DNA of 64,000 bases, taken from NCBI GenBank assembly GCA_023664265.1, contig JAMPFV010000003.1:1-64000 (forward strand), in the 5' to 3' direction. Origin of the DNA: Roseburia sp. Its GTDB lineage: Bacteria; Bacillota; Clostridia; Lachnospirales; Lachnospiraceae. Position 1 is the first letter of the stretch, and each line of letters begins with the position of its first letter. Position numbers and translations under genes: made by a program. Below are positions 1,259-46,609 of this stretch, piece by piece. The notes below the pieces were generated by a model. That model searched no databases. It saw only the letters and a list, made by a program, of their open reading frames with translations, and was not told where the DNA came from.

Positions 1259-1317
1259 GCCAAACCATAAGTGGTTTGGCACAAACTCGTTATGCGCATA
1301 GTCTCAGCAAAGCTGAG
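1259..1317 (+). promoter_or_regulatory. Two stem-loops in the sbcD leader
   Basis: Two perfect short hairpins precede sbcD. The first is GCCAAACC/GGTTTGGC with a 6-base loop, at 1259-1280. The second is CTCAGC/GCTGAG with an AAA loop, at 1303-1317. No T-run follows either, so they are not classical terminators. They may affect stability or translation of the sbcDC mRNA or bind a protein. Confidence 0.4.
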
Positions 1318-1350
1318 CCGGTAAAACAGCGCAGAAATGAGGTGAAAAAC

Positions 1351-2508
1351 ATGAAATTTCTGCATTTAGCAGATTTACATTTGGGAAAAGCGCTGAGTGA
1401 CTTTGATCTGATTGAGGATCAGAGATACATCCTTGACCGGATACTTCATATCGCGGAGAAGGAATCCATAGACGGCGTATTCATCGCTGGAGATGTGTAT
1501 GATAAATCCGTTCCGAGCGAGGCGGCTACGAGGCTCCTGGATTATTTCCTGCTCGAGCTGTCCAAGAAAGAAATAAAGGTCTTTATGGTGAGCGGAAACC
1601 ATGATTCGGACGATCGTTTGAATTACGGGAGCGCTCTGTTTGCATCGAATCAGATATTCATATCGGCCGTCTTTGACGGAACACTTCATAAGCAAAGCTT
1701 TGCTGACGGGGATACGCAGATCGATATCTACATGCTTCCGTTTGTGAAGGCTTCTCAGGTAAGACATTATTTCCCAGATGAGGATATAGAGAATTATGAC
1801 GACGCTGTCCGCACCATCCTAAGAAACACACGCATCAACAGGAAAAATAAAAATATTCTGGTGGCGCATCAGTTTGTCGCGGGGAGGGGAGCAGATCCCG
1901 CACTTGCAGGCTCTGAAAGCGTCGGCACGCAGAGTGTGGGCACGGTCGAAAAAATCGGATATGACTGCTTTGATGATTTTGACTATGTGGCATTGGGCCA
2001 TATTCACTCGCCACAGAGCGTTGGAAGAGACGAGATCCGATATGCCGGTTCTCCGCTCAAATATTCTCTCAGCGAAGCAAACAATGAGAAGTCGGTTCCG
2101 CTGATTACGGTATCGGCGGAGGAGAAGATCAAGATAGAGCTTGTTCCCCTAAAGCCGATGCGGGATATGAGGCACATAAGAGGGACGCTGAAGGAGCTGT
2201 TGGATCAAAAGAATGTAAACGCGCCGGAGGATTTTATTTATGCAACGCTGACGGATGAGGACATCCTCAATGATGCGATGGGCGTATTCCAACAGGTATA
2301 TCCCAACACGGTGCGGATTGATTACGACAATTCCTATACAAGAGAGATAGAGCAGGTGGACATCAGCAGAATTGCCGAAAACAAATCCTTCGCGGAACTG
2401 ATCGGAGACTTTTACAGGCAGATGTATGGCTGTGAGATGACAGAAGAAGAAATGGACGTAATGCGGACAGCGGCACGGGAGGCAGGTGTTATCAGTGAAG
2501 CCGATTAA
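1351..2508 (+). CDS. sbcD: Exonuclease SbcCD, subunit D (Mre11-like nuclease)
   Basis: This is the Mn2+-dependent phosphoesterase subunit of the SbcCD complex, which opens and degrades hairpin and protein-blocked DNA ends. The Mre11 metal-site motifs appear in order: HLADLHLGK near the start, IAGDVYD, VSGNHDSDD, an AHQF segment, and ALGHIHSPQ. I chose the ATG preceded by AATGAGGTGA; a longer upstream in-frame start would add 25 residues that do not look like SbcD. The product is 385 aa, normal for the family. Its 3' end overlaps sbcC, so the two are translationally coupled, as usual. Two leader hairpins lie upstream. Confidence 0.96.
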   Translation: MKFLHLADLHLGKALSDFDLIEDQRYILDRILHIAEKESIDGVFIAGDVYDKSVPSEAATRLLDYFLLELSKKEIKVFMVSGNHDSDDRLNYGSALFASNQIFISAVFDGTLHKQSFADGDTQIDIYMLPFVKASQVRHYFPDEDIENYDDAVRTILRNTRINRKNKNILVAHQFVAGRGADPALAGSESVGTQSVGTVEKIGYDCFDDFDYVALGHIHSPQSVGRDEIRYAGSPLKYSLSEANNEKSVPLITVSAEEKIKIELVPLKPMRDMRHIRGTLKELLDQKNVNAPEDFIYATLTDEDILNDAMGVFQQVYPNTVRIDYDNSYTREIEQVDISRIAENKSFAELIGDFYRQMYGCEMTEEEMDVMRTAAREAGVISEAD

Positions 2509-5500
2509 ATTAATCATAAGCGCAATCGGTCCCTATGCGGAGAGGCTTCCGGAAATAGCGTTTGGGGCCTTTGAGGAAAAGGGACTGTTTTTGATATCCG
2601 GAGACACCGGCGCGGGGAAAACCACGATATTTGACGCGATATGCTTTGCCCTGTATGGAACGACCAGCGGAACCTATCGGGATACGAAAAATTTGAGAAG
2701 CGAATACGCCAAGGACTCTGTCGAGAGCTATGTGGACTTTTATTTTTCGCATCAGGGGCGTGAATTTCATGTGTGGAGACAGCCGTCCTATGAAAGGCGG
2801 AAACAGCGCGGAACCGGTGTGATATTGGAAAAGGAAAAGGCGGTTTTCTATGAGGAGGGGAAGGCGCCGACAGAGGGCCTGACGCAGGTCAATACTGCCG
2901 TAAAGGAACTGCTGCACCTCGATGAGAAGCAGTTTAAACAGATTGTGATGATCGCACAGGGGGAATTTTGGAATTTATTGAATGCCAAAACGGACCAGCG
3001 GACGGAGATACTGCGGACAATATTTTTGACGAGCGGCTATAAAGACATCGAGTACAGATTGAAGGATCGAATGGATGCAAGCGGCAAGATGAAGGAAAGC
3101 GCCGAAAGGAGCATTATTCAGCATTTTGAGGACGTGCTGATAGGCGAAGAGGACGCGCTCTTTGACGAACTGGAGGCTGTCAGGAGCAGGGTCGGACAAT
3201 CCGGAAGCATATGGAATTTGGATGAAATCTCAGATGTGATGGAGCGGCTGATTCTGTCAGACAGGGAAAAAGTAAAGCGCATCAGGGCAGAGCTGAAAGG
3301 GGCGGAGGCGGAGCTGAAGAAAAGCAATGAGGCGCTTGCGCTGGCCAAGACGAACAACAGCTTTATCGAGAAGAGAGACCGACTTGAAAAAGAGAAGGAG
3401 GAGCTGGAAAAAAGAAAGACGGAAATTGCCGAAGCGGTTCTGCTTTTGGACAGACAAAAGAAAGCCACGCGCAATGTGAATCCGTCCTACGCCGCGTGGG
3501 CGAAAAAGTGCGAGGAAGTGTCCTTGACGAAAAAGCAGATCGAGACAGCGGAATCAAATTTGGAGGCGGCTGTGAGCGCTGCAAAACAGGCGAAGGACGC
3601 GCTCGACGATGCCAAAGGGCAGGAGCCGGAGGTTGACAGGTTAAAGCAGGCGATCAGCAGGATTGATGAGGAGGAACAGAAATATCGGCAAAAGGAGGAG
3701 CTTGAAGGAAGGCTGGAAGCGCTCGGAAAGCTCGATAAAAATATCGGCGCGGAGGAAGCGGATTTAAAAGAATATGAAAGGGCTTTTCAGGAGAAGATAA
3801 AAACCCTTAATCGCACCGTCAGGGAATTAAAAGAAAAGCCGGCAGAGCTGGCGGAGGCCAAAAACGAGCATGAGAAGCAAAAAGAACTTTTGACGGATTT
3901 GAACACAATAACGGACATTCAGCTTCCGGAAAGAGAAAAAAGAAAAAAGGCGCTTTCTGAGAAACAGAAAGCATTCTTGGAGACGCGTGACAAGTATGAG
4001 GAGGCGGGCAAAAAGAGAGAGGCGGCTGAGCGCATTCTTGAGGACAGCAGAGCCGGCATTTTAGCGGGAAGGCTTGTAGCGGGAGAGAAATGTCCGGTGT
4101 GCGGCTCGGTACATCATCCGGAGCCGGCGAAGCTGAAAGCAGCTTCGATTTCGGAGGATGCTTTCAGGAAACTGCAGGAAGAAGAGGCAGAGCTTCAAGA
4201 GAAAAAGAACCATGTAAATACGGAGGCGGAAAAAGCAAAGACATCGTTGGAGGAATTTGAGGGACAGCTTAGGAGAACGATATTGGATTGCATTGAAAGT
4301 CCGCTTTTGGCCATGGCTATAAATATGGCCATGGAGGGAGCGTCTCTTGAGGAGCTGATAACGGCAGCAAACGAAGCAAAAACGCAGGCAGAGAGGAGGA
4401 CTAGGGAGAGCAGCCAAAAATGTACCTCCCTTGAGAAGGATTGCAGGGCGCTTAAAAGGGCCGAGAAAGCGCTTGAGGATGCGCAGGGAGACGAGACAGA
4501 GCGGCTCAATACAAGAAAAGAAGAGCTCAATGAGAAGAAGCAAAAAATAAAGCAGGAGCTTGCGGAAACGAGCGCCACCTTAAAGACGCTTGAGAAATTG
4601 AGCTTTCCGGATTGGGAGACGGCAAAAAAAGAGCGAAAACAGGCAGAGGCGAGGAAAAAGAAGCTGTCGGATGCCATCGCAAAGGCAGAGGAGGAAAAGA
4701 AAAAAACTGACAGGAATGTCACCGCCGTCGAATCGGAGCAAAAGACATTGAATGGCAGTCTGAGCCGGCAGGAAAAGGATGAAGAAGCTTTAAAAAAGAA
4801 GCTGGATGAAGAAATCCGTGCAAACGGCTTCTCCTCCGCGGAGGAAATGCTGAAATACGTTGCGGACGAGAATGCTATCGCATCGTCGGACAAAGTGATC
4901 AATGACTATTATCAGGCTGTCGCGACAAATAAAAAACAGCTCTTAGATGCGAAGGCGGATGCAAAGGGGAAAAAGCTTACGGACATTGAGGCCCTGAGGA
5001 CTGTATGCGATGAGCAGAGCGCAAGGGTGGATCGTATCAGGAGGAACTGCAACAACAGCGAAAACAGGATACAGACGAATGAAGAGAAACAAAAGAGCAT
5101 TTTGGGCAGGAGAGAAGAGCTGGAGAAAGCGCGGAAAGAGAATGCAATCTGTCAGCGGCTTTACAGTCTGGTCAGGGGAACAACCGGAAACGGAAAGATT
5201 ACGTTGGAGCAGTACATACAGGCTGCGGGATTTGACGGGATTATCGCTGCGGCAAACAGACGGCTGCTGCCGATGAGCGACGGGCAGTATGAGCTGTATC
5301 GTCAGGAGGATGCGCTTGGCAAGAGAAGCAATCATTTCCTTGACCTTGAGGTTCTGGACAATTATACGGGACACAGACGGCCGGTGGGGAATCTCTCCGG
5401 CGGCGAGAGCTTTAAGGCCTCGCTGAGCCTTGCTCTGGGCCTGTCCGATACCGTGTCGTCCAATCTTGGCGGCGTACAGATGGACGCGCTCTTTGTGGAT

Positions 5501-5689
5501 GAGGGCTTTGGAACGCTGGACCGGAAATCGATAGACAGCGCGATGGAAATCCTGATAAATCTGACCGGAAGCAACAAGCTCGTGGGAATCATCAGCCACA
5601 GGGAAGAGCTTATGGAGAATATTCCACAGCAGATTAAGGTAAAGAAGACAAAGGACGGCAGCCGGATTACCGTTGAGTGCGGCTTATAG
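2495..5689 (+). CDS. sbcC: Exonuclease SbcCD, subunit C (Rad50-like ATPase)
   Basis: This is the SMC-like ATPase partner of SbcD. The N-terminal Walker A is SGDTGAGKTTIFDAI. Two long Lys/Glu-rich coiled coils flank a zinc hook, GEKCPVCGSVHHP, near residue 532, almost exactly the middle of the 1064-residue protein. The C-terminal lobe has the ABC signature LSGGESFKASLSLALG, Walker B ALFVDEGFGTLD, and a switch histidine in ISHREEL. I placed the start at a GTG that gives MKPIKLIISAIGPYAE, the usual family beginning, with GGGAGG 12 bases upstream. A GTG nine bases earlier is the alternative. Both overlap the end of sbcD. No terminator hairpin is obvious after it. Confidence 0.96.
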   Translation: MKPIKLIISAIGPYAERLPEIAFGAFEEKGLFLISGDTGAGKTTIFDAICFALYGTTSGTYRDTKNLRSEYAKDSVESYVDFYFSHQGREFHVWRQPSYERRKQRGTGVILEKEKAVFYEEGKAPTEGLTQVNTAVKELLHLDEKQFKQIVMIAQGEFWNLLNAKTDQRTEILRTIFLTSGYKDIEYRLKDRMDASGKMKESAERSIIQHFEDVLIGEEDALFDELEAVRSRVGQSGSIWNLDEISDVMERLILSDREKVKRIRAELKGAEAELKKSNEALALAKTNNSFIEKRDRLEKEKEELEKRKTEIAEAVLLLDRQKKATRNVNPSYAAWAKKCEEVSLTKKQIETAESNLEAAVSAAKQAKDALDDAKGQEPEVDRLKQAISRIDEEEQKYRQKEELEGRLEALGKLDKNIGAEEADLKEYERAFQEKIKTLNRTVRELKEKPAELAEAKNEHEKQKELLTDLNTITDIQLPEREKRKKALSEKQKAFLETRDKYEEAGKKREAAERILEDSRAGILAGRLVAGEKCPVCGSVHHPEPAKLKAASISEDAFRKLQEEEAELQEKKNHVNTEAEKAKTSLEEFEGQLRRTILDCIESPLLAMAINMAMEGASLEELITAANEAKTQAERRTRESSQKCTSLEKDCRALKRAEKALEDAQGDETERLNTRKEELNEKKQKIKQELAETSATLKTLEKLSFPDWETAKKERKQAEARKKKLSDAIAKAEEEKKKTDRNVTAVESEQKTLNGSLSRQEKDEEALKKKLDEEIRANGFSSAEEMLKYVADENAIASSDKVINDYYQAVATNKKQLLDAKADAKGKKLTDIEALRTVCDEQSARVDRIRRNCNNSENRIQTNEEKQKSILGRREELEKARKENAICQRLYSLVRGTTGNGKITLEQYIQAAGFDGIIAAANRRLLPMSDGQYELYRQEDALGKRSNHFLDLEVLDNYTGHRRPVGNLSGGESFKASLSLALGLSDTVSSNLGGVQMDALFVDEGFGTLDRKSIDSAMEILINLTGSNKLVGIISHREELMENIPQQIKVKKTKDGSRITVECGL

Positions 5690-6853: not shown

Positions 6854-6864
6854 TCTGAAAAAGC

Positions 6865-6896
6865 AAAAAACGCAGGTTGCCGAGCTTGCGTTTTTT
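6865..6896 (+). terminator. Intrinsic terminator of the YD-repeat gene (TGCCGA loop)
   Basis: Twelve bases before the loop (AAAAAACGCAGG) pair with CTTGCGTTTTTT, with one G-T wobble, and the stem ends in six Ts. A T-G pair closes a TGCCGA hexaloop. It starts 12 bases after the stop codon. The same stem and loop recur near 41.57 and 41.67 kb. Confidence 0.85.
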
Positions 6897-6906
6897 GATT
6901 CTAAAG

Positions 6907-7211
6907 GATTAGGGTGTCAAAAGGTGCTTTAAAATTTTTCATTCGGCAAATTGCACAAAATATCGCACGCTGCCAGACTACGGCAAATGGATTTTCTAAA
7001 TATTCCGATATAAGTGATGGATACTGACGCAATCGTCCACCATTTGCCATCCATGGCTCAGGGTGGACTTTTCGGGACATCCATGTCCCGAAATTGCTGT
7101 TTCGCTGACGGAATATTAAGAAAATCTCATTCGCCTTCGCAAGTGCAGCTTAGCAATTTTTGTGCAATCTGCCTTGTTGAAAATAAAACAGTATCTTTTG
7201 ACACTCTAATC
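6907..7211. mobile_element. Palindromic MITE-like element with 9-bp target duplication
   Basis: The element begins GATTAGGGTGTCAAAAG and ends with the near-perfect complement CTTTTGACACTCTAATC. The imperfect inverted arms extend about 110 bases each. Shared blocks in the arms include TTGCACAAAA, GATTTTC and AATATTCCG. In the centre is a perfect small hairpin, TTCGGGACA/TGTCCCGAA. The sequence ATTCTAAAG is found at 6898-6906 and again at 7212-7220, exactly flanking the element, as expected for a 9-bp target-site duplication. No transposase is encoded, so it would need one elsewhere. It sits between the YD-gene terminator and the tandem terminator repeats. Open frames inside it have no coding signal. 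Confidence 0.75.
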
Positions 7212-7246
7212 ATTCTAAAGGAAATTGCGACAATCGTAGTGGAAGT

Positions 7247-7274
7247 ATCGTCGCTGCCGAGCGACGATTTTTTT
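7247..7274 (+). terminator. Intrinsic terminator, first repeat copy (TGCCGA loop)
   Basis: A perfect 8-bp stem ATCGTCGC/GCGACGAT closes a TGCCGA hexaloop and is followed by seven Ts. Confidence 0.8.
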
Positions 7275-7310
7275 GCTTCTGGAAGAAGTTGCGACAATCG
7301 TAGTGGAAGT

Positions 7311-7340
7311 ATCGTTGCTGCCGAGCGACGATTTTTTTTT
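7311..7340 (+). terminator. Intrinsic terminator, second repeat copy (TGCCGA loop)
   Basis: The stem ATCGTTGC/GCGACGAT has one T-G wobble and closes the same TGCCGA loop. A run of eight Ts follows the stem. Confidence 0.8.
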
Positions 7341-46569: not shown

Positions 46570-46609
46570 GACTCTTCCATAGGAAATTGCGACAATTGCA
46601 GTGGCGGTG

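Follow-up and report, generated by a model that had tools for sequence, protein, structure and literature searches.

Between an intrinsic-terminator-like hairpin and two terminator-like repeats, the window, which is the whole 64-kb stretch of DNA analysed here, holds a 305-bp palindromic element at positions 6907-7211 (no strand assigned) that is almost certainly a MITE. The hairpin, recognised by its inverted repeat, and its T-run follow an upstream RHS-repeat gene (6861-6900, plus strand), and the element adjoins them downstream. On the other side stand the two tandem 62-nt repeats (7213-7338, plus strand; copies at 7213-7274 and 7277-7338), direct repeats of 92% identity, of which the first overlaps the right target-site duplication; GGAAATTGCGACA opens this tandem repeat and is also found at 46582-46594. 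The ends of the element are 17-bp terminal inverted repeats (TIRs), the left one GATTAGGGTGTCAAAAG (6907-6923, plus strand) and the right one its inverted partner with one mismatch (7195-7211, minus strand), and they are flanked by an exact 9-bp target-site duplication (TSD), ATTCTAAAG, at 6898-6906 and 7212-7220. The two TIRs are the sole matches to GATTAGGGTGTCAAAAG at up to three mismatches in the 64 kb, for a chance expectation of 0.16. The palindromic element with its intact duplication and its placement between a terminator and a terminator repeat, both described in a first-pass annotation made from the letters alone, are thus confirmed. The inverted arms described there, of about 110 bases, are indeed of that length; their pairing is imperfect, at 71% in 6904-6973/7145-7214 and 94% in 6990-7007/7109-7126. 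The predicted fold of the plus strand from 6898 to 7220 reaches -133.3 kcal/mol (z -14.7 against shuffles), and that of the minus strand of the element -136.4 kcal/mol (z -12.6 against shuffles). Elsewhere in the window, a gene for a T5orf172-domain protein (482-1174) stands directly before sbcD/sbcC-like genes at 1276-5689.

Mobility of the element is strongly supported. A search with the 305-bp query, a check put forward in the first-pass annotation, recovers a second near-full copy in the same genome (contig C56, 85%) and several in the congeneric genomes G018 and G025. Diverged copies lie on contigs C15, C10 and C88 of the window's own genome, together with short fragments and a partial copy on C3 that comprises bases 197-305 and retains an exact terminal repeat. 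The query matches five of 60 genomes (own included): G018 and G025 have many matches, some with both TIRs, and G016 and G029 have short matches only. The TIR itself, at up to one mismatch, is present in nine of the same 60 genomes (own included), and the elements that it bounds fall into several sizes, 88, 116, 153-161, 230-237 and 304-340 bp. Those of 88-237 bp, in G006, G019, G029 and G032 (loci L065, L045, L052, L055, L068, L071, L076, L079, L084 and L086), share the GATTAGGGTGTCAAAAG TIR, beyond which the query finds no match in them. Searches of plasmid and phage collections yielded no match to the element (blastn, 1e-5). When named genomes were scanned for the TIR pattern, 81 stretches emerged, many at contig ends in Lachnospiraceae records. 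TIRs at contig ends in G018 and G006 were considered as insertion sequences and rejected, those of G018 being read as collapsed MITEs of the kind described below and those of G006 as having other interiors.

The classification as a non-autonomous, MITE-like transposon is upheld by the TIRs, the duplication, the copies elsewhere and the presence in other genomes of transposases between matching ends. One such element, at L174:3921-5791 in another Lachnospiraceae genome, is complete, with a length of 1871 bp, exact TIRs identical at both ends to the left TIR of the window, a 7-bp TSD (CTATAAA) and one 543-aa transposase, a DDE protein with the Pfam domains DUF772 and DDE_Tnp_1_6. The best NCBIfam match of this protein is IS1182, at E 3.6e-30 and with 105 bits, where the equivalog cut-off is 270; on this score it would be at best a divergent IS1182 member. 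The other, at L281:1333-3213 in a genome of the window's genus (G002), measures 1881 bp and has imperfect TIRs, the TSD ATATTAT and a 543-aa transposase ORF whose product is 52% identical to the L174 transposase. The L174 protein finds matches in eight of 38 genomes of the genus, two of them weak. As a query against the window's own genome it finds no transposase; that genome has an end-like stretch at C36:27066. Two other leads to a transposase were dropped: nine ORFs beside single TIR copies at eight loci in congeners, none of which looked transposase-like by eye, and ISLre2 and IS256, which were considered on TSD length and given up because the L174 protein matches IS1182 best. From its ends, the element is very likely of the IS1182 type, from whose complete members it differs in having no transposase inside.

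The sites of insertion are in keeping with this affiliation. Of 85 distinct outer flanks, 33 have a run of at least five T residues that adjoins the TSD and points at the element. In 420 control windows placed 100-400 nt farther away, which are partly coding and thus give a low baseline, the figure is 5%. Runs of at least five A residues are found in merely three of the 85 flanks, and this asymmetry of T over A is independent of the control baseline. The motif CAATTTC (up to one mismatch) lies beside 15 of the 85 flanks, as against 1% of control windows. According to the available part of PMC4923244, IS1272 of the IS1182 family inserts into terminator hairpins, as does TnSha1, and the T-runs at window-type insertions fit this targeting. 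The two differ in that IS1272 is reported to make no TSD, whereas the window TIR family usually makes one of 7 bp and the window element has 9. Among the 39 TIR pairs listed, an exact 7-bp duplication accompanies 16, one of which is a cross-pair of neighbouring elements, a duplication of 0 or 1 bp is found at 19, and the window element alone has 9 bp. The GTCGCAATTTCC motif, as in the 62-nt repeat of the window, flanks several insertions in G018; within the 64-kb window, the count of the GGAAATTGCGACA/GTCGCAATTTCC motif is not above chance. No syntenic relative offering an empty site was found among the 37 other genomes of the genus searched, just one of which encodes a full-length homologue of the downstream gene (32% identity).

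The core of the element, overlooked in the earlier sequence-only reading, is an RNA family. On the minus strand, positions 6975-7142 match the full length (1-168) of the Rfam model RF01731, TwoAYGGAY, with 133.2 bits against a gathering threshold of 43, and by Rfam's standard it is therefore certain that the element carries this known orphan RNA. The copy has the same two AYGGAY hairpins as the RNA described by Weinberg et al. 2010, hairpin 1 at 7070-7093 with the loop C-AUGGAU-G at 7078-7085, and hairpin 2 at 7046-7057 with the same loop at 7048-7055 (both on the minus strand, and both drawn from the Rfam alignment, the predicted fold and loop counts). What sets it apart from RF01731 as described, an orphan RNA, is its position inside a transposon that has TIRs and a TSD. 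The passages available from the listed papers that name TwoAYGGAY or AYGGAY do not link the RNA to transposons; the main text of PMC2864571 does not contain the words 'transposon', 'transposable', 'mobile' or 'inverted repeat'. The available portions of papers pairing CsrA with MITEs or IS1182 with MITEs, PMC4383904 included, likewise say nothing on TwoAYGGAY elements.

TwoAYGGAY is patchy and usually multicopy. The window's genome has six matches, the window copy included. In the family survey the RNA was detected in 45 of 299 genomes (43 above cut-off), 38 of which have at least two matches each (counted up to a ceiling of nine per genome), and in the class survey in 36 of 391 (27 above cut-off), 30 of them outside the window's family; there was none in 14 control genomes. 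TIRs of the window type bound TwoAYGGAY in four genomes outside the window's genus (G237, G121, G103 and G183), with exact 7-bp duplications at copies in G237 and G103 and not at the listed copies in G121 and G183. A single-contig genome from another Clostridia family (G394) has the RNA within a MITE of unrelated TIR, CTGCAATTCGTAATATA. Seven copies were located there (L401-L407), and L405, whose ends do not fit the TIR pattern, was excluded; the six measured copies are 284-285 bp long and at least 92% identical. Five of the six have direct repeats of 6-10 bp, with a boundary slop of up to 2 nt, whereas 30 comparisons between flanks taken from different copies give matches of five at the longest. 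The occurrence of TwoAYGGAY within both GATTAGGGTGTCAAAAG and CTGCAATTCGTAATATA ends makes the RNA a cargo of at least two unrelated MITE families. Further candidate ends, without duplication, were seen in G571 and G373. The window element resembles bacterial MITEs in general in being short, intergenic and multicopy, with TIRs and TSD, but differs in having an interior that is conserved between genera and between elements with unrelated ends.

Conservation of the interior has to be weighed against a purely selfish MITE, in which the core would be a DNA palindrome or a transposase-binding region needed for transposition and would have no role as RNA. The DNA is near-palindromic, there is neither orientation bias nor a clear promoter, and the elements of 88-237 bp suggest that the TIR alone is enough to move. 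RNAalifold predicted 34 pairs from 31 cores, with pair-keeping changes on both sides in 33 of the 34 and an invariant C-G pair closing loop 1. Because palindromic DNA can mimic covariation, G-U pairs were compared with A-C mismatches, which should be equal in number if neither strand is special. Hairpins 1 and 2 together have 45 G-U and 10 A-C cells among 118 distinct copies, in an alignment fitted to a G-U-tolerant model, which biases towards G-U; the outer stem, an internal control for this bias, has 19 and 16. When each pair is counted once in a genome and all helices are taken together, the totals are 45 G-U and 23 A-C (p 0.010). It is the hairpins of genera with the window TIR that account for the excess; there, 37 G-U against 4 A-C (outer stem, 9 against 5) argue against a selfish MITE and point to minus-strand RNA as the probable working form of the hairpins in window-type elements of these genera. 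Genera without the window TIR have 8 G-U and 6 A-C in the hairpins (outer stem, 10 and 11), figures that carry no information on the working form there; together with the lack of an excess in the outer stem, they are compatible with the selfish account. It is hard to reconcile, however, with the same core standing in the G394 MITE, which implies that the core is not required by one transposase only, or with an association with csrA that persists on a tree, and we regard it as doubtful. Far less credible is that the RNA regulates the neighbouring mRNA in cis. Rfam gives the type label 'Cis-reg', and among 113 distinct copies with sufficient flank (from 127 model matches; 20 of the 113 have no neighbouring ORF on one side) convergent contexts outnumber divergent ones by 28 to 14, which places copies near gene ends. 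Yet the RNA strand is sense in just 19 and antisense in 32 of 51 tandem contexts (p 0.09), so that a preference for sense-strand placement was discarded as unsupported, and the family is marked 'n' for cis-regulation in the available part of Weinberg et al. 2010 (PMC2864571). A sigma-28 promoter before the RNA, which visual inspection of G204 and G301 had suggested, was also rejected, the score over 112 copies being 7.99 of 12 and that of the mirrored control 8.03; the sigma-70 promoter score for the same number of copies reached p 0.038 only.

If the RNA is the working form, its loops direct attention to CsrA. Of the 118 distinct copies, 98 have GGA in loop 1, which is without it in the other 20, and 108 have it in loop 2; the window copy has CAUGGAUG in both. 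In a column test with one loop per group, the loop-2 GGA columns of 23 copies from the window's genus are 97% identical, a figure equalled by 441 of 5000 random column sets; the GGA mean was reached by 225 of 5000 sets in G147, 1161 in G183, 1421 in G121 and 2632 in G237, and across these five groups the GGA columns do not stand out clearly from the rest in conservation. In a sample of 299 genomes obtained like that of the family survey, PF02599 detects csrA in 154 (152 above cut-off). The gene is present in 44 of 45 genomes with TwoAYGGAY as against 110 of 254 without it (Fisher p 1.7e-13); the sole exception is G229, and the window's own genome has three matches to PF02599. Relatedness was taken into account with an rpoB tree of 73 genomes, built by a quick method and with 21 of 70 inner branches well supported. 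Its sample comprised all 45 positives and 35 negatives hand-picked, blind to csrA, from 55 random ones, and lost seven of the 80 (six without an rpoB match and G204, with a fragment only). In nine independent pairs on well-supported branches that differ in csrA, TwoAYGGAY is concordant in 6.7 on average and opposed in none (200 pairings; median p 0.016, range 0.008 to 0.125), and, conversely, csrA is concordant in 6.3 and opposed in none of 13 pairs that differ in TwoAYGGAY (median p 0.031). In Clostridia csrA is tied to motility, and the association could be indirect, through motility as a common cause. An association that arises secondarily from flagellar lifestyle or phylogeny, with the RNA binding another partner, gains from this tie and from a tree test of nine independent pairs only; we consider it improbable, since none of these pairs is opposed and the hairpin loops present a paired GGA that was matched to the CsrA-site motif in the available part of Gardner et al. 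2014 (PMC4333381), where CsrA-binding sRNAs in Clostridia were proposed. CsrA is thus the likely but unproven partner of TwoAYGGAY.

A transposon-borne, CsrA-binding RNA is the reading that best accommodates these observations, and one that we hold to be rather probable. Under this reading, an IS1182-type transposase recognising GATTAGGGTGTCAAAAG ends would mobilise the MITE in trans, with a preference for AT-rich sites that often lie just behind intrinsic terminators. The minus-strand cargo, with its two predicted hairpins and their C-AYGGAY-G loops shaped like CsrA sites, would be transcribed and would bind CsrA through the paired GGA loops, and the RNA may then act as a dispersed decoy (sponge) or as a CsrA-dependent RNA. 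Binding to CsrA is also proposed as the reason why lineages share the core and not the transposon ends. In presenting GGA from several of its hairpin loops, TwoAYGGAY resembles the CsrB/RsmY-type sRNAs, but those belong to Gammaproteobacteria in the available text of PMC4333381, whereas TwoAYGGAY is a multicopy, mobile and putative CsrA binder. A CsrA sponge spread by transposition is possible. The fuller proposal, that a mobile CsrA-binding module has passed between unrelated transposon ends and that its copies form a genome-wide sponge, tuned by transposition and lost with csrA, is more tentative, and we do not expect all of it to hold. If the CsrA-binding reading is correct, an orphan RNA of 2010 is explained, patchy and multicopy as the cargo of a transposon, and a transposon disseminates sites to which a global RNA-binding regulator binds. 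The proposal made in 2014, that Clostridia have CsrA-binding sRNAs, becomes testable now that a partner and loops can be named. RF01731 matches should not be annotated as cis-regulators of the next gene.

In four genomes (G147, G204, G301 and G328) the copies have the appearance of long-settled elements and not of fresh MITEs. Their outer arms of about 30 nt are 0.59-0.73 identical between copies (random, 0.55) and pair at 0.86-0.93 within a copy, with cores that are 0.67-0.80 identical; in two copies the cores are 90% and the arms 63% identical. The arms in these genomes, those of L244:601-765 and L246:601-766 among them, often start after ACAG or GT and end in GCGTCCG, and several of the copies stand in divergent pairs. 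Two TwoAYGGAY units on opposite strands, separated by a few hundred bases, were observed at L241 (the same site as L202), L243, L244, L245 and L246 in G147, L266 and L270 in G204, L213 in G069, L215 in G268 and L228 in G098, in each case divergent, with the minus unit first. A close pair on the same strand occurs at L219 in G227.
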